Part shown: positions 6,061-48,800 of the stretch, in pieces | Layout of the letters: each line of letters opens with the position of its first letter | Position numbering within the stretch: position 1 is the first letter of the stretch | Assembly: GCA_015183035.1 (NCBI GenBank) | Contig: JACZZP010000012.1 | Coordinates: forward strand, 372,001-436,000 | Reading direction: 5' to 3' | Source of the DNA: Meloidogyne chitwoodi | Taxonomy: Eukaryota > Nematoda > Chromadorea > Rhabditida > Meloidogynidae | Length of the DNA: 64,000 nt | The notes under the pieces: generated by a model | Databases searched by the model: none | What the model was told of the DNA's origin: nothing | Seen by the model: the letters and a program-made list of their open reading frames with translations, nothing else | Program-made: the position numbers and the translations under genes

Positions 6061-6081
6061 TTTAGAGAAAAAAAACTAATA

Positions 6082-9680: not shown

Positions 9681-12245
9681 TGTAAGACTCTAACATATAA
9701 AATATTCCCCCTGGGCATGAACAACAATCACTCCTCCCACTTTATAAACACATATAAATAGTTTAATTGTTTAAGCTGAAAGGAATCAGTTAGAGAGATC
9801 AGTCTAAGAGAATTATTATTATTGTGAATTAAAAATGTTATTTTCCTATAAATTGTATGTGAAATAAATAATAGAATAAATATTGACAGCAGATCTTGTT
9901 TATATATTTGAAGAGTTATAATCCTTCGGAGACGAGGGAAACAATTGAGTTGACTAGACTTAGGATTTACATTTCACGCTGGCCACGCGAATTGTCATTT
10001 TCTATTTCCCATCTACCCCTTCCACTTTACTGGTAGCACCGGATTCTGGAGTAATCCAGGGTCGATCCATCACAGATGCGGAAACTAGTCACTCAATGAT
10101 GTGGAGCGCTCCACCTGCCGCAGGGCAGAGCAGATATAATGGATCCGAAATAAATACATAGCTGTCGAAAAATAGAATGCGCAGAATTCACAAACAATTA
10201 ATTAAATAAAATATAAGGTATACCTTGCTGAGAAGCAGAGAAGAAACAAAAAAAAGAGAGTCCACGAGTTTGAAATGTTCAACAAAAAATAAAAAAAGAA
10301 GAAAGGAGATATAATAATAAAAGAGAGAAGAGGACATGAAAGATTTTAACAAAAAGCCCAGAATATTTAAAAATTTTTTTCTATGACAAAATTTCCCTCT
10401 AAAATGAATCTTATTATTTTTAACAATTATTCTTATTTTTTTGCAAAAGTTAAAATAATATCGTCAATCCAGAGATTAAAGTACGAAAGGCCAAACAAGG
10501 ATTGAAGATTACACAATATTTTTCTCACCATTTAAACAATATAAATTTTTGTTTTATCTCTCTACAAGCATATACATAGCAGAGCTAATAAAAATAAAAC
10601 GTTAGTCCTTTTCACACATAATCTAAGTGAAAATCTTTAAAGAAAATGGAGTTATCACAAAGAGAAAGGAGAAATATAATTTAAGAATCTCAGCACAAAT
10701 CATTCATTCATTTTATTTATTAAGAGAATTATAAATAAAATTTTTTTTTATTATTTTATTTATTGTCATAAATTAAATAAATAAATTTATTATTGTTATT
10801 AATAAGTAAATAAATTAATTTTAGAAAATAAGAAGCTAATTACTTAAAACAATTAAAGCATCTTCGTATTACCGAATAGAATTCAGTGCATCACCACATT
10901 CTTTTGATTCTTCAAGGACGAGCAGTTCTCGAATTATCAATACAAACCTAGTCGAAAGACAGAGTAGTGATAAAATGACTAATACAGCAGAGGATGAAAC
11001 AATTATCATGGCAATTGACAGAAATTTTTGGATAGGAAAAACTTCAATTAAAATCTCAGACGTTGAAAAAGCACATGGTGATGTGATAGTTTTAGAAGAT
11101 AGTATGAACAAAGCCATAAGAGCTATTAAAAGGTATATCAAGCAGAACACAGATGCTATCAATAAAGCATCAGAGGATGTGAATTTAAATTTTGAATCAG
11201 TAAACACTCAGATAATCGATTTAGAAGATCGTGTGCAAGAGCTCGAAAACAATACACATACAAAACAAGAAAAGTCGAACGTTGAACAAGGGAAAGGTGA
11301 AACGTCCAAAAGCACTGTAACCATAGTTCCAGGAGTAAACTCACTAGATAGGCGAAATATTGTAACCAGAAAATTAAATCCTGATGATGACAGTGACGAA
11401 TTTAATTTCAGCTTGAACATGCTCACCTCTAATTCTGGAATTGAGATATTCGGAGAGGAATCAGTCTACGCCTTTGACAAGTGGGCTGAAAGATTCAAAG
11501 ATTATTTAATTATTGCAGGTAGGAATTGGACCGAACAAGAGAAAGTCGCAAGACTTCGACTAGCTTTAGGTGAAACGCCAAGAGATTTGTTCAGAGAGCT
11601 TAGTCCAGCACAAGTTGCTGATGTTGGAACAGCTTTAGTATCACTAAGAAGCAAATTAGACTCTCCTCAACGAAGGGAAGCTGCTAGACTTACCTTATCA
11701 ATCTGTAAACAGAGGGAAGATGAATCGGTAGCTAGATTTTTGAAAAGACTGGTACCATTAGTAGAAGTAACAAACCCAGGTTTAGTGGATGAAGCCAGGA
11801 AAGAAAAGATCTGTGAAGAGCTAAGAGGTCGTCTTAAGCCAAGTTTAACAAATATGATGAGATTAATTGGGGCAGCACAAATGAGTGATCTACAAAAATT
11901 TAAAGAAAGAGCCGAGGAAGTGGAGGCTGTGCTTCAGGCAGACAGAGGATTGCCAACCCAGCTTGAACAGGTAGTAAATGTGCTCAAGAACCAAGGTAAG
12001 ACATTCAATCTAGGCACAAGCACTCAGCCAAATAATAATTTTAACCAGAGACCCGATAATAATAATTTCAGAAAACCCTTCAGAGAAGATTATCAGAATC
12101 CAAATACTCGAAGAATGATTCAAAATTATAGAGGAATGAACCCGAACAGAATTAATATACCGGCCAGAGGTTGGAATTCACAGCAAATGAGAAGTGAAAG
12201 GAACTGGACAGGACGATCAAGGTGTTACAATTGCAATAGGACTGG
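9681..12245 (+). repeat. direct repeat copy 2: LTR plus truncated gag
   Basis: Second copy of 217-2781. It starts with the LTR right after the polypurine tract and ends inside the zinc knuckle, where it joins the micro-exon gene fragment at 12246. The arrangement LTR-gag...LTR-gag is a tandem in which two units share the middle LTR. Confidence 0.9.
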
Positions 12246-12420
12246 TCTCGTAATCCCTAAACTCATTTTATATAATAATCAAAATTATAATTCAGCAATG
12301 GAAAAACTTCAAGAACTTGCTCAAGCACACCAACCATTTAATCATCATTATAATCCTCAAACTAACTCAAGTAATTATTTATATTCTGATTATAGACTGC
12401 AATATATAATACTAATTTAA
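10975..12420 (+). pseudogene. gag: Gag, copy 2, cut in the zinc knuckle
   Basis: Same protein as at 1511 through the CYNCNRTG half-knuckle, up to 12245. The reading frame then runs about 58 codons into the unrelated sequence shared with 1-133 and stops at 12420. The knuckle has lost its His and last Cys, so RNA binding by this domain is lost. Nothing downstream belongs to the element. Confidence 0.85.
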
Positions 12421-18075: not shown

Positions 18076-19295
18076 TAGACGCAAGACAAATAATCGCAAG
18101 GGGCCATCTAGACGCAGGACAAGTTATGCCTTTTTATACAAAAAATCAAATTTAAAAAGTAATTAAAAAATTCAAAAAACTCTCTATATTTCTCTTAAAA
18201 GATAGGTGGAAATAGCGCACTGAAAAAAGAAACGCTTCGCGCGTGTATCTATATAAGCTCTATTTATTTCTATATGAGCTTGATTTGAGCTAGAGATGAG
18301 CTCGATTTTAGCTCAAGATGAGCATGATTTTATCTCAAGATTAGCATCATTTAAGCTCAAAAGGAGCTCAATTTGAGCTCAAGATGAGCATGATTTTAGC
18401 TCAATTTAAGCTCTATATGAGCTCTATTTATGGCTATACGAGCCTAATTTGAGCTCGAGATGAGCTCGATTTGAGCTCAAAAGGAGCTTTATTTGAGCTC
18501 ATGATGAGCATGATTTGAGCTCAAAAGGATCTCGATTTAAACTCATGATGAGCATGATTTGAGCTCAAGATTAGCATGATTTGAGCTCATGATGAGCATG
18601 ATTTGAGCTCAAAAGGAGCTCGATTTGAGCTCAAGATTAGCATGATTTGAGCTCAAAATGAGCTCAAATCGATCTCATATTGTGCTCGCTTTGAGCTCAA
18701 TTTAAGCTCGATTTGAGCTCGAGATGTACTCGATTTGAGCTCTATATGAGCTCGATTTAAGCTCTATATGAGCTCGAGATGAACTCGATTTAAAACCAAG
18801 CTGAGCATGATTTAAGCTCAAGATGAGCTCGATTTTAGCTCAATTTAAGCTCTATATGAGTGCGAGATGAACCAAGTTAGGCTCAATTTTAGCCCAAGTT
18901 TGGCTCAAGCTTGGCTCATGTTAGGCTAAGTTGGACAAGTTTTGTTCAAATTTGACAAAAATTAAGCTCAAGTTTGGCAAAAGCTTGGCCCAAATTAGGC
19001 TCAAGTTTGGCAAAAGCTTGGCTCAATTTTAGGTCAAGTTAGTCTCATGTTTGTCTCAACCTTGGCTCAATCTTGGCTCAAATTTGGCTCAACTTTGAAT
19101 CAAGTTTGGGTGAAGTTAGGCTCAACCTTGGGTCAGGTTAGGCTCGAGTTGGCTCAAGTTAGGCTCAAGTTTGGCTCAAACTTGGCACAAGTTAGGCTCA
19201 GGTTTGCTCAAGTTTGGCTCAAGTTTGGGTCAACTTAGGCACAAGTTTGGCTCCGTCTTGACTCAAGCTTGGTTCAATTTAGTCTCATATCAACA
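18075..19295. repeat. composite satellite block 2 (copy of block 1)
   Basis: Repeats the order of block 1: two 33-bp units, the GCGCACTGAAAAAAGAAACG lead, GAGCTC arrays to about 18870, then GGCTCAAG arrays. Long stretches match block 1 closely, for example the CGCGTGTATCTATAT-AGCTC stretch near 18240 and 15815. Confidence 0.9.
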
Positions 19296-19459
19296 TTACA
19301 GAGCCCAAAATTCCAGGACCCCTTGGAATATACTAAAAAAATGTTTAGAATATTGAAAAAAATTTATATGTGAAATTATTTTTCTAAACTGAAAGAGCCT
19401 TAAAGTCGCGCAGCTGCTTCTCAAGGCTCGTATAAGAATAAAAAAATTCTTCAATATCA

Positions 19460-19465
19460 AACGAA
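19460..19465. repeat. target-site duplication, left (AACGAA)
   Basis: AACGAA directly precedes the left terminus AGTAGTATATAC. The same six bases follow the right terminus at 32192-32197. A 6-bp duplication is the Maverick/Polinton hallmark. Confidence 0.85.
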
Positions 19466-19790
19466 AGTAGTATATACTATAGTTTTAAAACATTTTTTTG
19501 TTTTAAAACTATAGTATAAATAAAAAAATGTAAAAAACGAAAATTCAGGACCAACACCTCTGAACTCAAACTTACGGGCAAAAAGTTGGATATAGATTTA
19601 GTACCAAGCTAAAAAGAAGTTAAATAAATAATTATTGTACCATATGGTCTTTTAAAAAATAAATCTTTTTTTTGGAAGATGTTGTGAGCGTTCGGAAGTT
19701 GCGCTTTACAAAAAAAGATTAAAAGAGATATTCAAAAATTTTTTTAAATATTTTTTAATGAAAAAAATTAATTAAAAGCAGGAAAGCAAA
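19466..19790 (+). repeat. left terminal inverted repeat
   Basis: Pairs with about 31870-32191. Shared blocks include AGTAGTATATACTATAG, GATTTAGTACCA-GCTAA, AAATAA-TTATTGTAC and GATGTTGT-G-G-TCGGAAG (read in TIR orientation). A palindrome TACTATAGTTTTAAAACA...TGTTTTAAAACTATAGTA lies at the tip (19476-19517) and also at the right end. Confidence 0.8.
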
Positions 19791-20528
19791 TTAAAAAAGG
19801 TAAAAAAATAAAATAAAAAATAAATTTTGTAATTTAGAAAAAATTAAAAAATAAATTCAAATTTAAACATTAAAAAAATACATGAATGTATGTATAATGG
19901 AGTGTAAAAACAAAAGTGGGGGAAGTTTAAAGTCCTAAAAATTTTTTAAAAGATGATGTAATAAGGGGAGGTCAAAAAACAAGAGGCTACCGTGTGCGTA
20001 GTTCAAAAGTAAGAGAAGAGGTTAATGCGTCCGTAGTAAAAAACAAGAGGCCAAAATAGATGTGCCAAAAATAGAGGCCAAAAATTTTTATATGTAAACA
20101 AAAAAAGTGTGTAAACAAGTAGGTGAAGGTCAAAGACTTCTTAAAATTTATGTGTAACAAAAAGTGTAAAGATCTAAAATGTAAACAAGCAGGTCCAAAA
20201 TTTTATGTGTAAACAAAGTGTGAAGGTCAAAGACTTAAAAGTAATGTGGCAAAAAATGTAAGGGGGGCAATGCTTTAGTAAAAGAACAAAGAAGGGCGGG
20301 CCGAATTTTAATAGTAAACAACCTAGATCATGTTAAATTTTTTGACCTATAAAAGCACAATGATTTATCAAACCAACATCATTTTTTCAACTTCAAAAAT
20401 TTCTATCTTATGATAGATTTTTTTATCTTGCCCTTTTTTCAAACCGCATTTTAGATTTTACAAATTTTAATAAATCATTTTATAGTTTGTATTTTTTTGA
20501 ATATAAAAAATTTTATTTAAAAATTCTC

Positions 20529-21262
20529 ATGGCAACAGAACATGTAAGTATTTTTAATTTAAAAAATTTTAATTTGACTATTAGTGATATTCCAAGCAGG
20601 GATGGGTAACTTTTGTATTTCGTATTATTAGACCCATTTTATTTCGTATTTCATCTTTCGTATTTTTGGACGAACTACAAAATTATTTGAACTTATGAAA
20701 TTTTTAAAATTTTGAAATTAAAAAACTTTTTTTTGGGGTAGTTTCGTATTTAGTATTTTCGTTACTTTCGTAATTTCGTATTATTTCGTGTTTTTGAGCC
20801 GTTTTATTTCGTATTACGTCTTTCGTTTTTCATTTTAGGTTTCGTAAATTTCGTATGTCGTCTTTCGTATTTTATTTTCTGATTTTGCCCATTTCTAGTT
20901 CCAAGTATCTTGGTCTTGTAAGTCTTGGTCTTTTGGTTTTCTTATTGGCCTTGGGTCTTTGTTATTGTTTTAGACCTGGAACATCTCTAATTAAATATAT
21001 ATTTTTTTACATAGGAAGTGAAGGTGTTTTGTGAACTTTTTAATAAAATGGCTGGTCCAATGTTTGAGGAAATATATGGTGAAATTGGAAAACTACAAGC
21101 AGATGTAAATGTGTTAAAATGCAGGATCGACATCATAGAACTTTATTTAAGAAATAAAACAAATTTTGATTGGATTGAGGCAGCAAAAGATTTGGTAAAA
21201 TAATTTTTTAAAGTTAATTATTTTTTTTTTAGTTGGCCGAACATGAAGCCATACATCAATAA
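20529..21262 (+). CDS. small coiled-coil protein of the Maverick, 3 exons
   Basis: Exons 20529-20543, 21015-21194 and 21233-21262 join in frame to 74 codons. The start ATG is followed by a GTAAGT donor, the second intron is 38 bp, and the stop is TAA at 21260. The middle exon is helical (MFEEIYGEIGKLQADVNVLK), likely an oligomerising coiled coil. A TATAAAAG lies upstream near 20347. The first intron contains a hAT-like MITE (20597-20897). Not a protein family I recognise; the assignment to the element rests on position. Confidence 0.55.
20597..20897. mobile_element. hAT-like MITE in intron
   Basis: Starts CAGGGATGGGTAAC and ends TTTTGCCCATTTCTA, with near-identical 8-bp flanks ATTCCAAG and GTTCCAAG (7/8). 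The interior is TTTCGTATTTCGTATT-type repeats. A related element lies near 39355-39460. Confidence 0.6.
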
Positions 21263-21548
21263 GAAAAAAAGAAGAATGATAATCTATATTTTTGTTTTAT
21301 TTTTTTATGTCTTAATAAAAGAATTAAGCCTTTAATTTATTTTTTTGCTAGTTTTAAACTAATTTATTATCTAAAAAAATAATTTTTTCAAATTTACTTT
21401 TAAGTAGAAGTTTCATCTAACGGTTGATTGAAGGCTGTACAACTGAAGCTGCTAGCCTGAACAAAAAAGTATGTTTAAAACAAAATATTTTTTTAATGCA
21501 TAAGTATTTTAAAGAAAAATTGTTATAAAATATATTTAATTTCTAGCA

Positions 21549-22100
21549 ATGTCTTCCAACAAGGAAAATGATCTTTTTTCTGACGAAGGAAATGAAGACA
21601 TAGAAAAAGGGAAGTTAAAGTTTATTAAATAAATTTTAGTTTTTTATTGCAGGACATGATTTATCAAAGAATATGCCTGATATTGAACAAGGTAAGAAAA
21701 AATAATTCAATTATTTTTTTATATAATTGATTTATTTTTTTCTAAAGGGATCGAGCACAATCAAAATGAGCGCGGAAAACCTGATATACAAGAAGAGAAA
21801 AGTAAGTGGTATTCATTTATGATGTATTAAAAAAATTCATCAAAAATGATTTCTACTTAAGCCGATGGTATTGATGATTTGAATGCTTTGGAATTAGAAG
21901 AAATTCGAGCATTTCTTAAAGACCAAAAGAAGAAAAAAGAGCAAGCTGAAGCTCGACGTCGCCGTTCTATACTACTTCTAATAGTTCTCTTAGTGCAAAA
22001 TCTGCAGGTTGTCAGCCTCCAATCCCAAAAAAAGCGAAACCAGCTGCGACAAAGAAGTTCTTTGAATAATTTAATAACATTTTTAAAAAATTTCAGATAA
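21549..22100 (+). CDS. charged multi-exon Maverick protein, incomplete model
   Basis: ATG at 21549 follows a TTCTAG acceptor. Short acidic exons (about 21549-21615, 21653-21692, 21749-21801) lead to an exon from 21861 with strings of Lys/Arg (KDQKKKKEQAEARRRR). In a second frame the end reads basic and Ser/Pro-rich and stops at about 22070 after AATKKFFE. The joins after exon 1 and the frame switch near 21965 are unresolved. A DNA- or capsid-associated basic protein is possible from composition only. Confidence 0.4.
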
Positions 22101-22103
22101 CAT

Positions 22104-22469
22104 GTGAACCGAATAAACAAGACAAGTGGCACTTTAGGTTTTAAATCGCAAAGAATTTTTTCGGGCCAGGTTGCAAAATATATGCCTGACATTTCCGGAG
22201 GTGTCCGTCAGTTATTAATATATGCTCCAAAATTAGTTGAAAACAGTATTATAGGGAACGTTACTGCTCCTCTCTTACGAGTTGTAAACGTCAGCGGGAA
22301 CCCTGGAGAAAGCGTTTCTGAAGTATATATGAATGAACATCATCATCGTTTATTAGGTAAACGACATCCTGATATCACTATCGAAATTAGAACACTTACT
22401 GGTAAACTTGTAAAATTCCATTGGGGTAATTGTATATTAACTTTACATTTTCAACGATCCCTATTTTAA
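22104..22469 (+). CDS. penton-like minor capsid protein, C-terminal fragment
   Basis: ORF of 121 codons opening with GTG; the first in-frame ATG is at 22182, and an in-frame TAA lies just upstream at 22098. The C-terminal signature of Polinton minor capsid (penton) proteins is visible: NVTAPLLRVVNVSG, then ITIEIRTLTGKLVKF and ILTLHFQR at the end. Polinton penton proteins are usually two to three times longer, so the N-terminal half is absent or lies in unresolved upstream exons. It would form the capsid vertices. It sits just before the core-like and major capsid genes. Confidence 0.6.
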   Translation: MNRINKTSGTLGFKSQRIFSGQVAKYMPDISGGVRQLLIYAPKLVENSIIGNVTAPLLRVVNVSGNPGESVSEVYMNEHHHRLLGKRHPDITIEIRTLTGKLVKFHWGNCILTLHFQRSLF

Positions 22470-22476
22470 ATAAATA

Positions 22477-22857
22477 ATGACACACGTTTTTGTTGATTTG
22501 GATAAAATAAATTGGGAACCCTTTTTAAATAACCAAGAAGGAGGAGGAAATAATAATGGTATTAATTATTTCCAGGGGACCCGCTATCAAAGAGGTTTTG
22601 GGATAATAGGAACTGTTGGGCGCTTCATAATGCCTATTGTTAAAAATTTGGCTAATACTGCTGGGCAAGAAGCTCTAACCGCGGGAAGAAATGTACTGGA
22701 AGATGTAGCACAAGGAAAGTCTGTAAAAGATGCATTAAAGCAACATGGAAGCGAGGGATTGCAAAAAGTTGGAAAAAAGCTCCAACAATGTGGAAAAGGT
22801 AAAAAACAGAAGAGAAAACGTAGATATAAAGATCAGCTAAGTTTGGAAGATTTTTGA
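22477..22857 (+). CDS. adenovirus pVI/pX-like core protein of Maverick
   Basis: 126 codons from ATG 22477, 8 bases after the penton-like stop. It has an N-terminal acidic segment, then GTRYQRGFGIIGTVGRF, an Ala/Gly-rich amphipathic helix (NTAGQEALTAGRNVLEDVA) and a strongly basic tail KGKKQKRKRRYK. This order matches the small Gly-rich, basic-tailed proteins encoded beside the capsid genes of Polintons and adintoviruses, which are compared with adenovirus pVI/pX. Expected role: internal capsid or DNA-condensing protein. No intron. Confidence 0.65.
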   Translation: MTHVFVDLDKINWEPFLNNQEGGGNNNGINYFQGTRYQRGFGIIGTVGRFIMPIVKNLANTAGQEALTAGRNVLEDVAQGKSVKDALKQHGSEGLQKVGKKLQQCGKGKKQKRKRRYKDQLSLEDF

Positions 22858-22860
22858 GTA

Positions 22861-22869
22861 GTATATAAG
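22861..22869 (+). promoter_or_regulatory. GTATATAAG box upstream of capsid gene
   Basis: GTATATAAG ends 28 bases before the MCP ATG at 22898. The same nine bases recur upstream of two other genes of this module at nearly the same distance (24753 and 25077). Likely an element-specific promoter, by inference. Confidence 0.55.
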
Positions 22870-22897
22870 TGAAAACTAAAACATTAAAAAATAAAAA

Positions 22898-24289
22898 ATG
22901 ACGACAATTAAAAAAATCGACAAAGATAGTGCTGAAGGTGTTGACAATAGAATCACCTTCTTTTCAGTTCCTGCTACAAATGTTGGAATCCAACGATCAT
23001 CATACAAAGAACTTTTACCTTTAAATGCACTTAATCAGTCTGCAGGTCCTTTCATTTTCCGTTATTTTGGAGATTCTCTATATTTAGACCTGAGTAAAAC
23101 TTTTGTTTGGTTAACTCTATCGCTCGAGAGAAAAGACACCATAAGTGGAGAATGGGTACCTATAACAGACGGTTCAGGTGAAAATTTAACGGGGGATAAG
23201 CATGCAGGTGTTGTACAATATATTGGGCTTACTTGGATTCGTCGTTTAACATTATCAATTAACGGCGTACAATGTTTCGATTCGGGGATTCATTATGCAT
23301 ATAGGTGTATTATAATGCACGCGCTTGGGGCAAATTATGATGTTAGTAAGGGTTTATACGAAGCGGGGCTTTATTACTCTGACGCCGAAGATAAAAATAA
23401 TTATGATGGAGCTGGTTTCAAGGCCCGTGCTGCACACTTTGCCAATGGAAAGTTTTGTCGTATGTTCTCACACCTAGACTTTGACTTGGCACGTCAGAAT
23501 CAGCTTTTAATACCGCATAGTGATGTGATTTGGACTCTTTATAGAAACACTGATGAATTTTTAGTACATGCTCCTAAATATCGAAAAAATGCAGGGGATC
23601 CCCTTACAGATAACATTAACACTTATCGTTTACGCCTGCAAGATTTAAGACTTTTTGTTAAACAGATGGACCTTAGTTCTTCGCTAAACAATGCAATAGC
23701 TCGCCATTTGGAACAGTCACCTGCAAAATATACTCAAAGAAAAATGGAAATTCGTAGTGTATTCCTGGGAAAAGGACGACAAGGAATAACACATCCCACA
23801 TTCACTAGCACTTGTCCTAGGCGTTTAGTCATTTGTTTTGTAAGTTCCCCGGCGTACATTGGAAATCAGGCCCTTTCACCATTCACATTTGAACATGCAA
23901 ATTTACGATCAATCTCGGCAGAATTTGGGGGTTTTCAATTCCCTTCTATTCCTTATGATTTGGATTTTGTAAATGATAATTTTGTTCGCGCATATGTTGA
24001 TATGTATTTGGGAATGGACCTCGATTCTTGGCCAAACATTGATCAAAGAACTCTTAGTATAAGCATGAAAAAATTCTCTCGTTCATCTTGCTTTTTTGTT
24101 ATTCCAATGACATCAACTCTCGAGGATACAAACGGATTAGAACTTATTCGTCAGGGTACAACAACAGTAAAATGTCTTTTTAACGAACCAATAAAAGATG
24201 AAGGATATGAAATGATAATTATGGGCGAGTTCGATTCCATATTGTCCATAAATGCCGATAGAGTTTTGAGTACTGATGGATCCGTCTAA
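22898..24289 (+). CDS. Maverick major capsid protein (double jelly-roll)
   Basis: 463 codons, intronless, ATG at 22898. The N-terminus has the Polinton/adintovirus MCP pattern FFSVPATNVGIQ, then LYLDLSKTFVWLTLSLE, IRRLTLSINGVQCFDSG and YRCIIMHALGANYDVSKG. These match the F54H12.2-like family that forms the hexon-like capsomer. MCP trimers build the icosahedral shell. The frame is intact end to end, with no stop or shift. The protease ATG follows 6 bases after the stop, so the two genes are packed like viral genes rather than like the intron-rich host genes around them. Confidence 0.85.
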   Translation: MTTIKKIDKDSAEGVDNRITFFSVPATNVGIQRSSYKELLPLNALNQSAGPFIFRYFGDSLYLDLSKTFVWLTLSLERKDTISGEWVPITDGSGENLTGDKHAGVVQYIGLTWIRRLTLSINGVQCFDSGIHYAYRCIIMHALGANYDVSKGLYEAGLYYSDAEDKNNYDGAGFKARAAHFANGKFCRMFSHLDFDLARQNQLLIPHSDVIWTLYRNTDEFLVHAPKYRKNAGDPLTDNINTYRLRLQDLRLFVKQMDLSSSLNNAIARHLEQSPAKYTQRKMEIRSVFLGKGRQGITHPTFTSTCPRRLVICFVSSPAYIGNQALSPFTFEHANLRSISAEFGGFQFPSIPYDLDFVNDNFVRAYVDMYLGMDLDSWPNIDQRTLSISMKKFSRSSCFFVIPMTSTLEDTNGLELIRQGTTTVKCLFNEPIKDEGYEMIIMGEFDSILSINADRVLSTDGSV

Positions 24290-24294
24290 TATAA

Positions 24295-24750
24295 ATGAAT
24301 TCAATACAAATTCAAACAATTTTGCAAAACTATAAGCCTCTAAAAAATAAATTTATTGGCGTTTATTCTTCGAATAATATTCCTAAATTCATTAAACGAA
24401 GAAATTTTTGCTTTATTGCAAATACTATGCGTAAAGGAACAAAGGGTGAACACTGGATCGCTTGCTATTCTGATACAAAAGATACTATAGAGTATTTTGA
24501 CTCGCTTGCAGAAGAACCTAACTGTGATATGCGCGAATCATTGCTTACAAATTATTCAAAAGTAAAACAAAATCTTTTTGTATTACAATCCCCATTTTCT
24601 GATACTTGTGGCCATTATTGTATATGCTTTTTAGTATTACGTTCAATTTATGGAAATTTTTCTTTGGTTCTACAAAAATTACATTCAATACCTGTTGAGG
24701 GGCGTAATATTATTCTTAAAAATTTTGTTCAGCGCTTAGTTATGTTATAA
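24295..24750 (+). CDS. adenain-like cysteine protease of Maverick
   Basis: 151 codons, intronless. Catalytic pattern of the adenovirus protease/ULP1 clan (C5/C48): His53 in GEHWIACY, Asp69 in EYFDSLA, Gln98 in LQSPFSDTCGHYC and the nucleophile Cys105 in the same motif. Spacing fits. In Polintons this enzyme matures capsid proteins inside the particle. All four key residues are present, so it could be active. Position directly after the MCP is typical for the module. Confidence 0.85.
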   Translation: MNSIQIQTILQNYKPLKNKFIGVYSSNNIPKFIKRRNFCFIANTMRKGTKGEHWIACYSDTKDTIEYFDSLAEEPNCDMRESLLTNYSKVKQNLFVLQSPFSDTCGHYCICFLVLRSIYGNFSLVLQKLHSIPVEGRNIILKNFVQRLVML

Positions 24751-24752
24751 TA

Positions 24753-24761
24753 GTATATAAG
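24753..24761 (+). promoter_or_regulatory. GTATATAAG box upstream of membrane protein gene
   Basis: Same nine bases as at 22861; 26 bases separate it from the ATG at 24788. Confidence 0.5.
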
Positions 24762-24787
24762 AAACAAAAAATAACCGAAAATTAATT

Positions 24788-25069
24788 ATGTTTATTTTTT
24801 TATTATTTTACTTTTCGATGACTTTCTCAAGTCAAGAGATTTTTTTACCTTTTCCTAAACATCCATATGAAGATAATACAACCTTCAATAACTGTCCTTT
24901 AAATGAAAAAATTTTGGCTCCTCCACAAAATTATATATTAGGTTTTGTCTATTTTTTGTATATTGCTTTTATTTTTCTTTTATTATTTTTTTATTGGGGA
25001 AAGAACGGTTTTATTGACCGTACTACTGATGGGAATGGATTAATTCGATTAGCAAGCCATAAAGTTTGA
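24788..25069 (+). CDS. small membrane protein of Maverick
   Basis: 93 codons from ATG 24788, intronless. It has an N-terminal hydrophobic signal-like stretch (residues 1-15), a short ectodomain with an N-glycosylation site (NTT) and two Cys positions apart, a transmembrane helix at about 49-70 and a short tail. Topology suggests a single-pass membrane protein. It is much shorter than the fusogens described in nematode Mavericks and shows no fusion-protein feature, so I give no function beyond membrane location. Confidence 0.55.
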   Translation: MFIFLLFYFSMTFSSQEIFLPFPKHPYEDNTTFNNCPLNEKILAPPQNYILGFVYFLYIAFIFLLLFFYWGKNGFIDRTTDGNGLIRLASHKV

Positions 25070-25076
25070 CCTTTGG

Positions 25077-25085
25077 GTATATAAG
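25077..25085 (+). promoter_or_regulatory. GTATATAAG box upstream of PAZ-like gene
   Basis: Third copy of the box. It overlaps the 3' end region of the preceding gene and ends 28 bases before ATG 25114. Confidence 0.5.
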
Positions 25086-25113
25086 AGATGAAAATTTTCG
25101 AACTAATATAAAA

Positions 25114-25699
25114 ATGAGGACCTCATGTATAACCTCTTCAACTGCATATACTCAATGGAGGGAACGCAAAGAACTTGAATCTAAACCCTCTTCACCTTGT
25201 CTTAGAAAAACATCACTTGTTAATCTACTATGTCAATTCAATGGGGGTTGTACGCCTGAAACGCTGCATTGTGAGATGCGCAAGAAGAATCTGGAAAATC
25301 TTAAATATATTCAGCAACTATCTGGAATGACTGATGATGATGTTGCTGCAGCGGGTATTGGACAAAGACTCTTAATGGATGGATATACGCCAATGAACAA
25401 TAAGGGACTTGTTACAAATTACCTAAACAAATTTCAAATGGAAATATATCCTTGCAAAATTACGCATTCTGGCGCAGATCGAGTATTCGCCCTCAGGGGA
25501 TATCTTCGAGTAACTATCAGGTAAAATTAAAAAATGTAAAAAAATAATAAAAAAATAATTATTCAGGCAATATTTCTACGTAAGACATAGAGTCAATCTC
25601 TATCTCCCCCGCCTCCCGCTCTTGTGTGTGTTTGGGGGAAAAAATCATCAATACTTCTACCCACTGGAGTGTATCGATGTTATAATGCAAGAAGAATAA
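25114..25699 (+). CDS. Argonaute/PAZ-like fragment carried by Maverick
   Basis: Exons 25114-25520 and 25567-25699 join in frame across a 46-bp GT/AG intron (about 180 codons; TAA 25697-25699). The spliced C-terminus has the end of an Argonaute PAZ domain: TIRQYFYVRHRVNLYLP, then LPLLCVFGGKNHQYFYPLE, matching the family pattern YF-x(n)-L-x-P-x-LP-x(n)-PLE. Upstream, NKGLVTNYLNKFQMEIYP resembles the start of an Argonaute N domain. Most of the N/PAZ interior and all of MID and PIWI are missing, so slicing is impossible. It could bind small-RNA ends, act as a decoy, or be a dead fragment. The GTATATAAG box and viral-style packing suggest the element expresses it. Confidence 0.55.
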
Positions 25700-26242
25700 A
25701 ATAAATATATTTTTCAAATGATTCTAAAAAAAATATGAAAAAATTTTAATACTTTTTATATCCGTAAAATGTTTACTTTTTTCCAATCTATAAATATTTA
25801 TGTTGAATATTTTTTCATGATTTTTTAAATCTAATAGGCTAGGGAAAAAAGCTTATACCTGAATCAAACTTATTTTGGTACTTGCGCGTTTTTCTATGGG
25901 CTAAAATTACAACAAAATAATTAGTTCCATGAAAATAATTTAAGTGCAGCCGCGGTAATCACTTAATTTTTTTCGAATTTCAGGTGTCTAACTACTAGAG
26001 ATGTTCCAGCACAAAAAAAAATAACCAAGACCAATTGCGACAGGTCTCGCGATAAAGTTACCGCAACAAATTTACTTGCGACAATATGGGCTGTACACAA
26101 AATAACCTTGGTATACAAATTATATTTAAATTGAATAAAGAATAAATTTTTATCTTTGTTGTAGATAAAAGATATATGAAAAAAATTCACATATAGCCCA
26201 CTTTTTTTCATGCGATCCGTCCTGTGGCATACTGGGTCATTA
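25700..26242. other. non-coding spacer inside Maverick
   Basis: No gene seen. Contains GCAGCCGCGGTAATCAC at 25946-25962, a motif also found in other repeats of the window. Confidence 0.5.
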
Positions 26243-26540
26243 GAAAGAGCTCCGAAGCTGAGTCGAACTAGAGATGGATAAAATTGGTCCTACAATTATA
26301 TGACGAGTTACAAACTTTTTGACAATTGAAAAAAGATAACGGATGTTCAAGCTCAATTTTGGGGTTAAAAATTAGAAAATATTATAGTAGCTAATTCGAT
26401 TGGTATAAGAGTTATTCTACGGCTAAAATTACCACAACATCCTTTCTCTTTTTTCAATTGTCAAAAAGTTTGTAACTCGTCCTATAATTGTAGGACCGAT
26501 TTTATCCATCTCTAGTTCGACTCAACTTCGAAGCTCTTTC
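26243..26540. repeat. foldback element, ~94-bp arms
   Basis: Left arm 26243-26336 and right arm 26447-26540 are near-perfect inverted copies (both contain GAACTAGAGATGGATAAAAT on opposite strands) around a ~110-bp loop. It lies between the capsid module and the PTB-like gene. Confidence 0.85.
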
Positions 26541-26636
26541 GAATGCATAATAAATTAAAAAGTATAAAAAATGGGCTTTTGTATTTTTTAATTTGCTTTA
26601 AAGTAAATTTGATTACCTCTAAATTTTTTATTCAAT

Positions 26637-29600
26637 TTATTCATTCCTTTTTTTGGAAAAAGAAACACGCAAATGGGCATTTTCAGCTAATTTGTAATTC
26701 TAAAATGTAAAAAAATTAATTTTTTTTGAAAAAGTATAATTATTTTACATGCATATCAATAAGAAAAGAAACAGCTGATTCTATATCTTCCAACTGAACT
26801 AAAGCCATTTTGTGATCATTTCTGAAAAAAACAAAAGAAAATAAAAAATAATTCTATTTTTAAAATAAAAAATTAACTGAAAAAATTTAAATTCATTAAT
26901 TTTAAAATCTTTGAAAATTTCAACAATTTGATCTTCCTCCATTCCATTTGGAATATTTGAAAGATGTAAAATTGAACATGGAGGATAAATATTCTAAAAA
27001 TATATATTCTAAAAATTAATTAATTTAACCATATAATTTTTGCTTCCAGGTTTTTTAAAACGATGAAGAGAAGAACTAGTAAAATTTTTAGTTAAACCAT
27101 CATCTGGTTGTCCTAAGAATGTTGTTTAATTAAATAAAAATGTTTTTTTAATTTTTTATAAATTAAAAAAGCATTTTTTTATTAATTTGTAAAAAATAAA
27201 TATTTAATTACCTTCTTTTGGCATTTGAACTAAATTATGTTTTGAATTAATTACACGAATTTTACGCCCATTCGATTTAAGTTTGTCCAAATGTTGAATT
27301 GCTTAATATTAATTAATTTTTTTAAATTAAATTATTTATTTATTACCTAATTGTGCCTGTTGAATATCTGAATATTGTATCAAAGCATTATTCTTTTTAC
27401 TGAAGAGGATTTTTACACGAATAACATCTCCATAGACACCTAAAACAATAAAAGCTCAAAAATTTTCAGTTTATTACTAATTTTATTTTTTTAAAAAGAA
27501 AATGCTAAAGAAGTTTTTTTAAACCTATAATAGTTTATACATAAAAAATATAAAAATAGCAAAGCGCCAATCAAAAGATGGCGTAAAGGCAGACATACCG
27601 AACAGAATGAAAAGTTTGTCTGGAGTCACAATCTAAAAAAAAGAAAATTGCCTTGAGTAAGAAAAATGAATAATACGGTAAGCAAAATTAAAAAAAGCGA
27701 AAAAAATTTTTTAATTATAATATTATTTAATTGAAAATGGACAATTTATTTTTTAATGTCTTGAGTTCAATTGCTATTCAATAAAAAATTTTTGATTCCC
27801 CTAACACTAATACTTTATTATTTATTAACAATTTTTAAGACTAATTACAAACACGTCCTCCAAAAAAATATTTGTCTATAAAAATTTTTAAAGTCAAAAT
27901 AAAAAATAGTAAATAATTGGTTGTTAATTTTAGTAACCGTAAAAATTGAAAAAAAATAAAACACTTAAATTATTAAAGTAGAAGCGTGGATGGTGATTTG
28001 GGCAGCGAGTTAAATATTTCTTTTTAAAATATTAAAAAATATTATTTATCACTACAGTCGATCTTACCAGATGTTTCTTTTTGTATAAATTATTAAATGA
28101 AGGAAGATAAAGCAAAAAATAAATTATTCAGAGATAGAACTTATTCATTTTTTATTTTATTTTATAAAAAATTTTATTTTTTTATTTTATATCCAACTCC
28201 GAAAACTAATATGGCCCTCAATCGTTTTAATGAAACTTATAAGGCGGCACTCGCAAATGGTATACACAGGCCTTATCTAGCTCGTAAAGCGAAGTACACA
28301 AGACAGAATAATTATTTAGCTGCCCTTTTACACGATTTTAACTATCGGATACACTCACTGCCCATATCACGTAACAGCAGTAGAAGAGCGCAATAAAAAA
28401 AAAGAAAAAAATATAGAAATAATACAAAAATATTTTTAATTGAAAAAATTATTTTTTTATTTATTTAAAAATAAATTTAAATTTTTATCTCTACATTAAA
28501 AAAATAGGAAACTCATAAAATCATAAATATTCTAATATACTCTCAAAAATATTCAAAAAAGAATAAAAGGATTTCTTAATATAAACATTTATTTTTTTAA
28601 ATTATTAATTATAATAAATATGGTATTTAAATTAGAATATTTACATTATCTTCAATTATTATAATATTCTTTTGCTAAAAATAATAAAAAAATCTTAAAT
28701 AAGTAAAATATTTTATTTAGTAACAACCTACAGTTTCATTTAAATTAGAAACAAGAACAACAGGTGTATTTACTCCAGACTGAAAAGCTGTATTTAAAAC
28801 TATTCCATTTAAATTATTAGATAATAATTGTCCTCCAGTTAATAAATCTAAAAAAATATTTTTTAATATAATTAATTAATAAAAGATTATAACAAAATAA
28901 AAAATAAAGCTAAGAAAAAATACTATTCAAAAAACAAACAAATAATTAATTATTATATACTATTACTTGGTTGTAAATTAATTGTTCCATGATTATTAAA
29001 TGGAAATTGTGAATTTGTTCCAATTAAAGTATTAACATTATTAGCCATTTGTTTTGCTGCAACAGCTGCATTAAATGGAAAAATTGCTCCAATTTGTTGA
29101 TGTCCACCAGTTAATTGTGATTTTTGTAAAATTAATTGTAAGTCTTTTTCATTTAATTCACCAGCTGGTAAATTTGGATTTGTATAATCACGACTTTTAT
29201 CATTATTATATTTAACATTTAAAGTATTACGTTTACTAAATTCTATATTCAACTTTAATAAAATAGAAAATAAAATTAAAAAAATAATTATTACAGTGCA
29301 ACATCCATTACAAATGTTTAATCCATCCAAAAAAATTTCTAAAATAAATTAATTTAAAATAAATTATTTTATTTGTTTCATTACTTGCATTCATTGCAGC
29401 ATTTGATTCGCTTAATTGAATTAAAGCTTGGAATGAATCTAAAAAATAATTATTTTTATTTTATTTAAATTTTATTTTTTACTATTTTTATTAAAAGTAA
29501 TTATACGAAGAACTTTTCCATAACGAGAGAATATCTATAACAAATAATAATTTAAAAAATTAAACAAATAAATAAAATAACCATGTAAAGAACATCTAAA

Positions 29601-29776
29601 GTAACAGGATATAGCATACATTTAATAATTATACGCTAAAAAATAAATTTTACTATATAAAAAAATAAAATTTAATTTAAAAACCAAAATTGAAGTTGGC
29701 TGATGTTGAACACAGCTTGATAAATTTTGGTAATTTTGTGCCATTAATTGTTTGCCCCAAATGATTATATAAAAAA
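26637..29776 (-). CDS. PTB-like RNA-binding protein (RRM2-RRM4) inside the Maverick
   Basis: Fourteen exons read 29776 to 26637: 29685-29776, 29582-29635, 29483-29534, 29385-29438, 29294-29337, 28967-29252, 28732-28847, 27599-27632, 27347-27439, 27212-27301, 27030-27112, 26878-26993, 26749-26821, 26637-26699. Frames and splice sites agree at every join. PTB hallmarks: [10 protein letters not shown] and [19 protein letters not shown] (RRM2 and following linker), [20 protein letters not shown] (RRM3), [11 protein letters not shown] and LHLSNIP then [12 protein letters not shown] (RRM4), ending [15 protein letters not shown] proteins bind pyrimidine-rich RNA and control splicing. RRM1 was not found; ATG in exon 1 gives a start. 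TIRs on both sides place it in the element. Confidence 0.8.
28211..28396 (+). CDS. small basic protein ORF in PTB-like gene intron
   Basis: 61 codons from ATG 28211, on the opposite strand within the ~1.1-kb intron between PTB-like exons 28732-28847 and 27599-27632. Rich in Arg, Asn and Tyr, ending RNSSRRAQ. The sequence is less AT-rich than its intron, which suggests coding. Could be a Maverick gene. No family recognised. Confidence 0.35.
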   Translation: MALNRFNETYKAALANGIHRPYLARKAKYTRQNNYLAALLHDFNYRIHSLPISRNSSRRAQ

Positions 29777-30202
29777 CTGAATTAAAAAAAATATTATTAA
29801 ACTCGAAAAACTTACGTTCAAAAAATACTGTAATTTAAAAATTTTAATTAAATAAAATATTTAAATTGATTTTACAAAATAAATAATTAAAAAACAACAA
29901 TCAAATATTTAATAAATAATTTAAGTCAAAAATTAAATTTTCTCAAAAAAACTTTTCTTTTTCTTTTCCTTTTTTCAATTTATTCTTTCTAAATCTGACC
30001 ATTTACCTAAAATATTTTGATATATAATTTTTCGATTAATTTTATAATTTTGAGAGCAAAAGGGCTTAAAGTTATCCGTAACACTTTTACAATCAAATAT
30101 TTTAGAGACTTAAAAAATAACAATTTAAAAAAATATAATTGTAAAATTTTAAAAATATGACCTGAAATAATTCTAAAATCTTTTAGGTAAAATTTTACGG
30201 TC

Positions 30203-30700
30203 TTAAATTCTTACAATTCGTCCTGCAAGAAAAGAAACGATTAATTTAACTCGTTCTTCAATTAAAGTAATACGCTCATTCATAATTCCAAATTGGTGTG
30301 CTGTATTGGCAATTAGATATTGCAAATCCTAAAATAGACGGTATTGTTTTTTTACAGAACCCCATATTTAGTATCATTCGACTTAGCTCGATAAAACAAA
30401 TCGAATGGTTGTCATTTTTCTAAAAACTTACATTCGGTATTTCCTCCTCGTTAACAGTATTTGGAGTATTACAGGAAGAACTAATTTTATATTATTAAAT
30501 TATTAAAAAAATAAATTGAAAGAGAATCAAAAAAACTAATTAATTTTCATTTTTCGAATCCATCTAGAAACTGACGTATATGAAACCGCATCCTCGAATT
30601 TTATTTTTAAAATATTATGTATTTTTTTTGCTGTATAATGTGGCTTTTTCTCTTTTAAATTAATTATAAAAGCTTTTTGATCACTCAGTTTTAACACCAT
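30203..30700 (-). CDS. small helix-turn-helix plus coiled-coil protein
   Basis: Exons 30537-30700, 30432-30480 and 30203-30328 join in frame to 112 codons (phase 2 then phase 0 introns). The N-terminal half resembles transposase/Psq-type HTH domains: INLKEKKPHYTAKKIHNILK then SVSRWIRK. The last exon is a helical heptad region (MNERITLIEERVKLIVSFL). It may be a DNA-binding factor of the element. It lies upstream of, and on the same strand as, the PTB-like gene, so it could instead supply 5' exons to it, though the phases do not fit directly. Confidence 0.5.
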
Positions 30701-30719
30701 TTTTTTATGGAAAAGCTAT

Positions 30720-31870
30720 TTCAAAAAAAAATACATTAAAAATTTTTAATAAATATGAATAACAATTCTAAAAAACTCGATTAAAGACTTATTAATTTAG
30801 TGGTGAAAAAACATTTAAAAGCTATATATATATTTAAAAGAATTTTATGAGCAATGAAATATTTAAAAAAACAATTTAAAAATTATGAAAGAACATGTAT
30901 TTTAAAAATTTTTCAAGTAATTATATTACAATACAAAAAAATAAAAATTAGTTTTAGAATTATTTTAAAATAATATATGGCCTATTAATTCTTTTTGTAT
31001 CAAATGAAGTAAAAGAGGCGGTCAGCTTCTTCACAAAACAAGGCGACCGGAAATAGTAGATAAAATATTTTTTATATAAAACATCTATGTACACTCACTT
31101 TATGTTCCAACTTTTTTTTTGATGTGTATCTATCCATTTGTTTAAACTTACTTTTATAAAATACGTTCAACCTTTATATTTTTTTGTAAAACAAAAAAAT
31201 TTTAAAAAAATTCTTCTTACTTTTTAAAATGTTTTGTTTTGATGGATTTTTTTCTAGAATTTTTTGTGTTTTACGGTAGTAAAACTTGAAGAAATTTTTT
31301 ATAAAATTTTTTATTTTTTTAATTAATTATTTTTTATAAAACAATAAAAATATTTTTTAAATTTATTTTGCATGAGAATTTTTCATTTATTTCTTTATAA
31401 TTTATTTTAAATCAATTTTTTATTTAATAAATATTAGTTAAAAAATAACAGTTTATTTAAAACAATCTTAGATAAATGAATATTTATTTAAAAAAATAAC
31501 AAATTAATTACCAAAAAAATATTTATAAAAAATATTCGATTATGTTTTTTATTTTGCAAACAAATTTAAATGCTCAAATAAAAAAATATTCTTCTGCTGT
31601 TTCTACTAATTTTATTATTTATTTTTATTTTTTTCTCATCATTTTACTTCATTGAATTTTTACTATAAAATTTATACAGTAATTATAATTTTTTTAATTA
31701 AATAAAATTTTATTTTTTTATATTTCAACCAATTAACAAATATAAAATTAAATTTTTATTGAAAAAATGCTTTGTTTAACTTATTTATAATATATATAGT
31801 AAAAAAATAAAATATTTTTTATTAAATAGAAAAATTATTTTAAAATGTCTTTAATATTAGCTAGTCTATC
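30720..31870. other. AT-rich stretch, no gene seen
   Basis: Homopolymer-rich sequence between the HTH gene and the right terminal repeat. I see no coding signal; a missing polymerase or integrase gene is not hidden here. Confidence 0.5.
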
Positions 31871-32191
31871 CTGTTTTTTTAATTAATTTTTTGTTTGCAA
31901 ATATTAAAAAATTTTTTGATATCCTCTAACTTTTTTTATTTATTTACATATCCTTTTTTTGGTAGAACAAAACTTCCGGACACCTACAACATCTTACACA
32001 AAAAATATTTATCTTTTTTAAAGGACCTATTTGTACAATAATTTATTTAACAACTTCTTAGCATGGTACTAAATCTGCATACACATTTTTGTACAAAATT
32101 GTTGATCCTGCTGTTTGGCCTACTCTTCTTTTTTTTTAGTTATACTTAGTTTTAAAACATTTTTTGTTTTAAAACTATAGTATATACTACT
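31870..32191 (-). repeat. right terminal inverted repeat
   Basis: Inverted, diverged copy of 19466-19790. It ends GTTTTAAAACTATAGTATAT then ACTACT at 32191, followed by the target duplication AACGAA. Confidence 0.8.
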
Positions 32192-32197
32192 AACGAA
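32192..32197. repeat. target-site duplication, right (AACGAA)
   Basis: Perfect copy of 19460-19465. Confidence 0.85.
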
Positions 32198-32584
32198 ATT
32201 TTAGAATAATTAATCCAAAAAAGATCGTATTTAAAGTTAAAAGGGGTGTTGCATTTTAAAAAATGAAATATCTTTCAGAGATGGGTAGGTAAAAGGGTTT
32301 TCATATTAAAAATGGGGGTTGTGTTTAAAGTGTGATTTTAATAAAACCAGGATGGATTTTAAGTTTTTTTTTGTTTTTTAGGCGGTTTTAAGGGAATTTT
32401 TATTAACTGAGATTTCAATGAATAATTGTTTTTCAAGCTGTTGAATTATGAGTTGCCTTTTTTACAGGGGTTAAGGAGCAGCTCATTTTGAAAGTTGGTT
32501 TTTAATTTTTAATGAAGTTTTTTTAAGAGAGTTTTAGAGGGTTATTTTCTTATATTTTACCAAAATTTTCTAGAATCAGTGTTA

Positions 32585-32640
32585 AAAGCGCGAAGCGGTT
32601 TCTATATTCCAGTGCGCGTAGCGCGCTGGTTGAATTTAAC
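32585..32640. repeat. GCGC-rich repeat related to satellite lead
   Basis: GCGCGAAGCGGTTTCTATAT then CCAGTGCGC resembles the reverse complement of the lead sequence at 15785-15815 and 18212-18245. It borders the 3' end of the micro-exon gene. Confidence 0.5.
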
Positions 32641-32677
32641 CGGAAGAACTACTTGAAGAAGATGCTACTTGTTTTTC

Positions 32678-41581: not shown

Positions 41582-44500
41582 TTAATTTTCTTTAATATTT
41601 TCTTTTAAAATTTGTTTTAATAAACTAATAAATTCATTTGACTCTTTATACTCTAATTGACCCTTTTCAGACTCTAAACTAACTTTTTCTTGTTTTTCTA
41701 AAACATTTTTGTTTTCCTTTTCAGACTCAAATTCTTTCCCAAAATTAGCTCTTAAATTTTCTATAAAAGGCTCTGTCACTTGTTTTATTTGTTTAAACAC
41801 TTGTAGCACACTTAACTTATTTTTTTCAACTTGTTTTTCAATTGAATAATAAAGTTTAAATTCTTCATTATTTTCTTCTAAATTTTAAAAAGAAAAATTT
41901 AAAAGAAAAATCAAAAATTTTTTTAAATTAAATTTTTTGTATTTATGTGCTTTGGGTCCCCCCTTTTTTCAAAATTATAAAATATTAAAAATTAATACAA
42001 ATAATATTTTATTTGAAATAACTCATCGAGCTGAGTCGGAAAAGACCAAAATAACTTAATTTGATTAGACTTGAAAAAAGATATAATAAATGGAAACTAT
42101 TTTCCGCGAAAATAACTGGAAGCAGCCTCGGTAATCACTAGATTTAATCGTTCATAACTTTGTTCAAATCTAACAAAATTAACTTATTTTGGTATCATTC
42201 GACTCAGCTCAATGAGTTCTTTCAAATAAAATATTATTTGTATTAGTTTTTAATATTTTTATAATTTTGAAAAAAGGGGGACCCAAAGTACAATTACCTA
42301 ATTTTTATTTTTTAAGTGTCGGATCGTTGGATATCTACAAAAAATAAAAAAACAAACCTTTAGTTTTAACAGTACTAATTAAATTATTTCCAACAACATT
42401 TTCTCTTAGACTTTTTGAGTTGCAACCTAATAAATTTGAAAATCTTTTTGAACCACCAAATCCTCTTTTTGAACCAAAACTTGATTTTAAACTACTACTT
42501 TTAGTCACTTTATTTTTTAATTCTTCTTCCTCTTCTTCTGAATTATTTAAATTATTATCTAACCAATAATTGAAGCTTAAGTCATTTTTGGAATTTCCAA
42601 TGTTTAAATCTTCCATTCTTATTTGTTCTGAATATTCAAAAATATTTTTTTCATAATTTTCAGAATTTAATAAATCTTTTATTTTCATCATATCCTTGTC
42701 AAATTCATCTCTTTTTTCTTTTATTTTTTCTAAGCTTTTTAATGATTGTTCAGAATTTAAAGCCAAACGGTACGAATTATTATAAAGTTTTTCAATAGAA
42801 TTATTTAATTCTGAATATAAATTTAATTTTTTGTAATTTATTGTTATTTCTTTTAATTCTTTCTAAAAATTAATTAATTTTATTTAATTTTATTAATTTA
42901 ATTATTTTATTTTAATTCTAAATTTAGAAATTCTCATTTTGCAATGATTTTTTGACTTTATTTAATTTTATAACACTTTAACTCCCTTTATAAGGACACC
43001 CTAAGGGACACACAAAGGTATATGTCAGAGTTATCCAATATGTCCCATTTTATTTTAAAAAACACGGATTAGGACAAGCAAATAGGGGTGTGTCCTTTGT
43101 GTCCTTATAACGAGAGTCACCTAATTAATTTATTAATTACAATCCCGTTATAGGGACACCCCCGAAATGTGTCAACGAATGTCTTTTATTCAATATAACT
43201 TTATATTCGACGCTTTTTTGGTTGGAAAAACCTTAAATTGACTGGAACATGGGTGTCCTTATAACGAGAGTCAATTATATATTTAATTAAAAATTGTAAA
43301 TTTACATTTTGCTTAATATCCTCATTTATATAATTAGCAATTTTTTCTACAACAGAATTATAGTCATCCATAAATTTTAGCATGCTATTTAAAGTTTCTT
43401 GTTTCATTTTTATTAGTATTAATTCATTTTTAATTTTTGTTTTTTGTTCCAAAATATCTTTTATTCTGTTTTGTATTTTTGTTTCTGATTTTTTAACCGG
43501 TCCTTCTTCTGTTTGTATTTTTGTTAATTCTGATTTTTTAACCGGTCCTTCTTCTGTTTGTATTTTTGTTAATTCTGATTTTTTAACCGGTCCTTCTTCT
43601 GTTTGTATTTTTGTTAATTCTGATTTTTTAACCGGTCCTTCTTCTGTTTGTATTTTTGTTAATTCTGATTTTGAATTTTTGTTCAGAAAGTTGTATTCCG
43701 CTTTTATGTTTTTTACAGATTCTGATTTTTCCTCTATTTCATTGTTCAGTTTTTCAATAGCAAATATCAAAAAGTTTTTTAGATTTTCATTTTTATAGCT
43801 TAAGTCGTTTACAAATTTTTCGATGTCCATACCAACAGATTGAATAAATTTGATTTCTTTTAATTTTTCAAATTTTTTTAATAGTCTTTTTCTGAATTAA
43901 CAAAAATATACTATTAAAAAAATTTATAATCAGAATTTTAAAAAAAATAAGAAATTTCAAGAGAAAATTCTGTTAGAAACAGGATTGATATTTTTAGATA
44001 AAATTGTTTAGTTTCTTATATTTAATATAAAAATTAAAAAAAAATAAATTTACCTCAATCTTAATTCTCCAAATTTTGACTTAACATATTTTCCTTCATT
44101 AAAATATTCACACCATTCTTTAAAAAATAAAGTTTGGCCTTCATTGTCAGTCAAAAGCCAATTTTTTGGATTATTACCTTCACAATTTGGCTTTAAATTT
44201 CCAATTTTAATTTTTTTATTTTCTTCTATAATTCCACATTGTGTAAAATCATAATTTTCTGTTACCAAATATCTTATATAACCTTTCAAATTATTTTTAA
44301 ATTTTTCTTCAATATTTTTAATTTTATTTTGATAAATTAATTTTAATTCGTTTATGTTTTTGCGTATGTTTGAAAATTGTTTTGTCAAATTAAAATAATC
44401 AGTTGGATATTCTTTGAGAATTTCAATTATTTTTGTCAATGGGATATTTGTTTCTTTCTAAAAAATTTATTTTTTAATTTTTAAAAAAATATTTTTATTT

Positions 44501-48563: not shown

Positions 48564-48589
48564 ACTAAAAATACTATGCGATCGGCAAG

Positions 48590-48800
48590 CCGAAACTTCC
48601 GGATCAGCGCTTCAGGACTCAAACTTTTGGTCCAAAACTTGGATATAGATTTAATACCATGCTGCAAAATTGTTATATAAATTTTGTTCCGTAGTCATTT
48701 TGAAAAGGCAGAGATTAATTATTTTGTAAGCTTTTGTTGGCTTCCGGAAGTTTCGCTCCACCATACCGGCTGGTTAGGCCTTCAGCAAGCCATTTTCAAA
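48590..48800 (+). repeat. copy of the Maverick-type terminal repeat
   Basis: ACTTGGATATAGATTTAATACCATGCTGCAA... and TTCCGGAAGTTTCGCTC align with 19575-19720 of the left Maverick TIR and, inverted, with the right TIR. A further inverted copy lies at 51226-51380. The same terminal-repeat family therefore bounds a different gene content here. Confidence 0.7.

Follow-up and report, generated by a model that had tools for sequence, protein, structure and literature searches.

A probable Maverick/Polinton deletion derivative with a truncated, intron-bearing PTB gene copy in the nematode Meloidogyne chitwoodi

Within a 64,000-nucleotide stretch of the Meloidogyne chitwoodi genome (contig JACZZP010000012.1 of assembly GCA_015183035.1, here C4:372001-436000; hereafter the window), we found a 12.7-kb unit at positions 19466-32191 that is best explained as a non-autonomous derivative of a Maverick/Polinton element, carrying as cargo a truncated and partly constrained copy of the host PTB gene. 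We assign this reading a probability of about 0.7. The genome searched was the assembly of 47,477,280 bases in 30 contigs, and positions given without a contig are those of the window.

The ends of the unit are perfect inverted repeats of 27 nt, forming the outermost part of longer terminal inverted repeats (TIRs) at 19466-19715 (plus strand) and 31960-32191 (minus strand); over the outer ~240 nt of both ends, 192 of 232 aligned bases agree. The repeats start with 5'-AG, as Mavericks do, and are bordered by a 6-bp target-site duplication, AACGAA, at 19460-19465 and 32192-32197 (neither assigned a strand), a length that is the norm for Mavericks. The possibility that these termini are unrelated to Mavericks was considered and rejected, because the outer motif is found again on contig C28 and at one end of a capsid-bearing sister element (L083), which terminates in the same layout. 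Segment 31961-32098 is also similar to the inner part of a ~930-bp repeat, which at the two loci examined has 200-bp arms and different ends. The end motif was absent from 79 of the 84 loci compared, most of these stretches being too short to reach an end.

Both flanks (19290-19465 and, continuing it, 32198-32660) belong to a dispersed repeat that hosts the insertion. We fused the left flank, through one AACGAA, to the right flank after the second AACGAA and searched the genome with this empty-site query. At least 16 copies of the dispersed repeat spanned the junction in one piece (40 of 48 candidates were scored, and copies matching the right flank alone were excluded from the count): five at 94-98% identity, namely those on C6 (98%) and on C27, C29, C3 and C1 (94-95%), and a further eleven at 83-85%. 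In this search the locus of the window itself was split into two parts, query positions 1-177 and 171-639, whose shared stretch is the duplication. Base-by-base reading was applied to the junction of one of the 16, the C6 copy: this copy is identical at 616 of 627 aligned bases (98.2%), with four gap columns and a single AACGAA at the junction. Since AACGAA is single and the flanks are continuous at C6, everything inside the unit arrived together: the whole landed as one piece, unless a precise loss or gene conversion emptied the C6 copy. With the same proviso, the insertion is later than the split of the two repeat copies, which diverge by 1.8%. An earlier note on this DNA had reported the inverted ends and the AACGAA duplication, had proposed that the interior moved as one unit and had named an empty site with a single AACGAA as a check; the C6 copy is such a site, and these claims were borne out.

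The gene content of the left half agrees with a Maverick/Polinton origin. The open reading frame (ORF) at 22898-24289 (plus strand) is predicted from a structure model to encode a major capsid protein with the double jelly-roll fold expected of these elements (among the structure-search matches, only the capsid-protein rows were interpreted). It is followed by an adenain-like cysteine protease, likewise expected (24295-24750, plus strand; PF00770, 22.2 bits against a cut-off of 21.3). The earlier note had named both a capsid and a protease gene. Four further plus-strand ORFs complete the capsid module: two candidates for a structural role (22101-22469, and 22474-22857 with a basic C-terminus), a small hydrophobic ORF that by eye looks like a membrane protein (24761-25069), and an ORF at 25063-25524, after which the sequence common with close sisters stops near 25703. 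To the left, also on the plus strand, lie a small coiled-coil-like gene (MAGP..., 21039-21375), with 69% similarity to the left portion of a sister (C13:76579-76925), and a gene at 21544-22126 that is 79% like its counterparts in two sisters (C13:77460-78036 and C8:584105-584681). A packaging ATPase and a minor capsid protein had no Pfam match among the 25 ORFs of the element that were scanned.

Two genes central to Maverick mobility were not found in the element, as the earlier note had observed: neither polB (PF03175) nor the rve integrase (PF00665) had a match. Comparison with the sisters indicates that they were deleted rather than overlooked. Window position 22126 corresponds to C13:78036 and position 22130 to C13:89844, placing the junction of an internal deletion at 22127-22129, with ~11.8 kb gone. 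The C13 interval absent from the window element contains a partial polB match (C13:82009) and an rve match (C13:88358), and the layout on C8 is alike, so that both matches occur there in two sisters. Of the other copies with a capsid identity of at least 88% (n = 8), all eight had an rve match 2-4.5 kb upstream and four had a partial polB match ~8.2 kb upstream. These counts exclude the window's own locus; C13:120806-121024 was merged with its copy C13:119638, and a polB match on the opposite strand near the latter (C13:107487) was left uncounted. As the window element has no polB match and the deleted interval of the sisters holds partial ones, we class it as a deletion derivative and not as a complete Maverick, polB and integrase having been lost through the ~11.8-kb deletion. 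Genome-wide, capsid matches amounted to 62 rows; 59 of them have no internal stop, and some lie on contigs that look nearly identical (e.g., C16 and C17). The 47-Mb genome holds many intact-looking Maverick families, and several copies, mostly of other families, retain long polB, integrase or capsid frames.

The cargo gene lies on the minus strand at 26637-29744 and comprises 14 exons encoding 407 amino acids (aa). Window 26626-29768 matches the host PTB gene (C26:1617223-1620489) in both exons and introns, with three blocks at 77-86%, and these two loci are the only PTB loci found in the genome, by DNA as well as by protein search. All 13 introns of the cargo copy are GT-AG, its frame has no stop, and the host introns lie at the same places; a processed (retro-)copy was rejected, since neither copy lacks any of the 13 introns in the stretch compared. 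Pfam matched RRM_8, two RRM_1/RRM_5 stretches and RRM_occluded, all over the cut-off, which identifies RRM2, RRM3 and RRM4 and agrees with the PTB-like gene of the earlier note, now traceable to the host's own PTB family. The fourth domain of PTB, RRM1, is lacking: homology begins downstream of it in the host gene, which we infer to have an RRM1. Beyond the coding region, homology extends for 24 nt ahead of the ATG and for 11 nt past the stop codon. The element's ATG itself lies within the captured DNA but is not in frame in the host gene; from reading the two sequences, the distance from ATG to RRM2 is 8 nt shorter in the element, which brings the ATG into frame. A tract ending in AATTCAG precedes this ATG and an AATAAA overlaps the stop codon, both motifs being common in AT-rich DNA; the former could serve as a spliced-leader acceptor. 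The long intron (28731-27633) carries a repeat-like insertion (27985-28378) absent from the host gene. Taken as a whole, the alignments show the cargo to be a copy of the host PTB gene made at the DNA level, with introns but truncated at the 5' end. One might instead suppose an ordinary host PTB paralogue around which Maverick pieces landed, PTB being a normal host gene family whose C26 member has its introns at the same places. The empty site with a single AACGAA contradicts this, barring misassembly of the locus, as do the limits of homology just outside the ATG and the stop; we rejected host-gene status with flanking Maverick debris on the empty site and consider it very improbable.

We then asked how the captured gene has evolved. 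The two PTB copies share 90.8% amino acid identity, and 403 codon pairs gave dN 0.044, dS 0.131 and a ratio (w) of 0.33 (bootstrap 0.21-0.54). Across the 12 short introns we counted 57 substitutions over 695 sites and 44 indel events, 28 of which are not multiples of three; intron 7 (1,099 and 1,228 nt in the two copies, with separate insertions) was omitted from these counts. Over 1.2 kb of exon, indels of 3, 12 and 3 nt were counted besides one of 9 nt in the start region, and the last codons contain two further ones of 1 nt each. A neutral model built from the element's own exons predicted ~25 frameshifts on the element branch and left a stop-free frame in 2.9% of 20,000 runs. Estimated replacements on the element branch are also fewer than neutrality predicts (Poisson P <= 0.003 for each of three splits of synonymous change that were assumed). 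By block, pairwise w was 0.19-0.30 in three of the four PTB blocks and 0.81 in the last three codons.

Several observations weigh against a functional, Maverick-borne cargo. One linker block of 100 codons has a pairwise w of 1.35, and w on the element branch alone is about 0.5-0.7 under the assumed splits. Runs of four or more A/T make up 39% of the introns versus 14% of the exons, so the frameshift expectation is overstated, perhaps threefold; the near absence of frameshifts is nevertheless improbable even at one third of the expected number. Where the two copies differ in the aligned RRM stretches (24 residues), human PTBP1 has the host residue at 10 positions, the element residue at 1 and neither of them at 13, and the element copy therefore took most of the polarisable changes. 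The constraint on the PTB copy is thus partial, and some of it could predate the capture. In addition, the PTB cargo is present in a single element of the genome, the polB matches of the close sisters are only partial, and the sole sister of the right arm, on C28, has no PTB and carries other DNA beyond C28:520596.

Part of this evidence would suit a passive passenger, that is, PTB DNA trapped by chance and now a slowly decaying pseudogene without a role: the cargo is single-copy, has lost RRM1 and bears a repeat insertion in an intron, and its branch has the 10-to-1 excess of changes and the raised w. Decay without a role is, however, hard to reconcile with 1.2 kb free of stops and frameshifts before the last codons, set against 44 indels over 695 intron sites, with splice sites intact in 13 of 13 introns, or with replacements below neutral expectation under all three splits. 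We therefore consider a passive passenger unlikely and favor a cargo under partial constraint.

The order of events can be approached through substitution divergence, which is 8.2% for the PTB introns, 4.2% for the right arm versus its C28 sister, and at most 1.8% for the insertion site. The right arm (30193-32191, minus strand) is common to that one other locus (C28:518086-520596), with 1,903 of 1,986 ungapped positions identical and 91 gap columns. As the PTB introns diverge by more than the age of the insertion, PTB had most likely become part of the element lineage before the insertion at the window locus. Two accounts would fit: PTB was lost from the C28 arm or that arm is itself truncated, or else the source of PTB, which may have been another species, had diverged beforehand. 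In the latter vein, the element may have brought its PTB copy from another nematode species, the 8% being species divergence: the intron value exceeds both the right-arm split, of which one arm is without PTB, and the insertion, and nematode Mavericks are described as moving genes between species (Widen et al., as summarised in the consulted part of PMC10680173). The changes are skewed to the element branch, unlike plain orthologue divergence, and the C28 arm may simply be truncated; such a transfer also seems rather unlikely. Alternatively, host PTB DNA could have entered an element already resident at the locus. The right half is indeed a patchwork with repeat insertions, and 25703-30193 had no match in the sister loci compared; yet PTB is 8.2% diverged from the only other PTB locus versus 1.8% at the site, and a later nested insertion would need a diverged source, none of which was found in the genome. 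We regard this as improbable, and retain capture by the element lineage before insertion.

We propose the following course for a non-autonomous Maverick derivative with PTB cargo. The element has its end layout, its left-hand genes and its capsid module in common with sisters that match polB and integrase, and an internal deletion of ~11.8 kb took out the part with these matches. Without them, its movement would need help in trans, with copying and integration presumably supplied by related elements. PTB would have entered the lineage before the single insertion of the whole unit, with its 6-bp duplication, into the dispersed repeat, and selection would have maintained its frame over much of the time since it joined. 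If expressed, the 407-aa RRM2-4 protein may compete with host PTB on pyrimidine-rich RNA, which would bias the splicing or stability of host or element transcripts to the element's benefit; given the domain content and the general roles of PTB, such expression and competition is the likeliest mechanism, though a tentative suggestion that we place below even odds. Slightly less probable still is the full picture of a satellite-like Maverick that has lost its own replication genes, moves in trans and ships a host-manipulating gene, namely a functional, trimmed splicing regulator of nematode origin (possibly from another species) selected as an RNA-processing effector.

As further cargo, the earlier note had also named an Argonaute/PAZ-like gene. 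No PAZ or Piwi domain had a Pfam match in any of the 25 ORFs of at least 60 aa or in nine shorter ones, a scan that is not fully sensitive to split genes and missed two unspliced PTB ORFs. The proposed RNA-silencing cargo set is accordingly unsupported, whereas one RNA-binding gene, PTB, and the Maverick-type unit around it did stand. The note had also listed an HTH gene: an HTH-like/coiled-coil gene upstream of PTB (30203-30700, minus strand) has three exons (30700-30537, 30480-30432 and 30328-30203) that read open, with Pfam similarity below threshold. By eye, its first exon is out of frame in the C28 copy. Between the capsid module and PTB lies a repeat insertion (25873-26545) with hairpin arms at 26238-26347 and 26436-26545, the first ~90 nt of which have tens of genomic matches. 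Beside the right arm on C28, locus L081 (C28:520074-524500) contains split ORFs, one opening with what by eye is a signal-peptide-like stretch; this locus may represent an element that was truncated or that carries other cargo.

Elsewhere in the window, an 11/22-bp minisatellite (18500-19290) adjoins the left side of the flank repeat. A GC-rich stretch (43%) at 6028-9159 contains two adjoining ORFs, the second (748 aa) encoding a superfamily-1 helicase (AAA_11/AAA_12); it lies between ORFs 1376-3196 (zinc knuckle) and 10840-12420, whose first ~490 aa are near-identical. A MULE transposase domain occurs at 49219-50076, with two segments close by (48569-48762 and 51271-51378) similar to the ~930-bp repeat mentioned above for the segment within the TIR. 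Two minus-strand clusters of long charged ORFs with similar starts (KEL.EITINYKKLNL), at 42335-45921 and 54531-58307, are perhaps a duplicated gene family; the three ORFs scanned had no Pfam match.

Nematode Mavericks with cargo are on record, carrying wosp proteases and krma kinases (Widen et al. 2023, as summarised in the consulted part of PMC10680173). The window element resembles them as a virus-like nematode element with capsid genes and a nematode-derived cargo gene; it differs in that its cargo is an intron-bearing RNA-binding splicing regulator and in lacking polB and integrase. In C. elegans, the Harbinger element Turmoil-1 transduplicated a 205-bp fragment of an RRM gene into its inverted terminal repeat, with the 5' splice site destroyed and no selection, according to the part of PMC2572040 consulted. 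Both cases concern a nematode DNA transposon capturing an RRM-encoding host gene fragment with an intron, whereas here ~3.1 kb was captured, with 14 exons, an open frame and signs of selection. Nut weevil Mavericks similarly embed foreign genes, some retained, although the donor is bacterial and the host an insect (excerpt of PMC13419823). Pack-MULEs and Helitrons, a different element class, also capture gene fragments at the DNA level, full-length capture being exceptionally rare (excerpt of PMC6431247, and in part general knowledge). Compared with PTB/hnRNP I itself (human PTBP1), the window copy has RRM2, RRM3 and RRM4, found by Pfam and aligned to solved human chains, but lacks RRM1 and takes its start codon from a part of the captured DNA that is not in frame in the host gene. 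Among the matches listed in our literature searches, none described PTB or other RNA-processing cargo in a Maverick/Polinton, and the consulted excerpts of PMC12680543 and PMC7593179 contain nothing on such cargo.

Few cargo classes are documented for gene capture by animal Mavericks. In the present case, one genome provides the boundaries, the empty site, the deletion that would make the element dependent, and an order of ages. Two questions thereby become testable: whether captured RNA-processing genes are kept by virus-like elements for the element's benefit, and whether an element without polymerase and integrase can spread such a gene in trans. Our findings suggest that such elements can pick up and keep genes of gene regulation.

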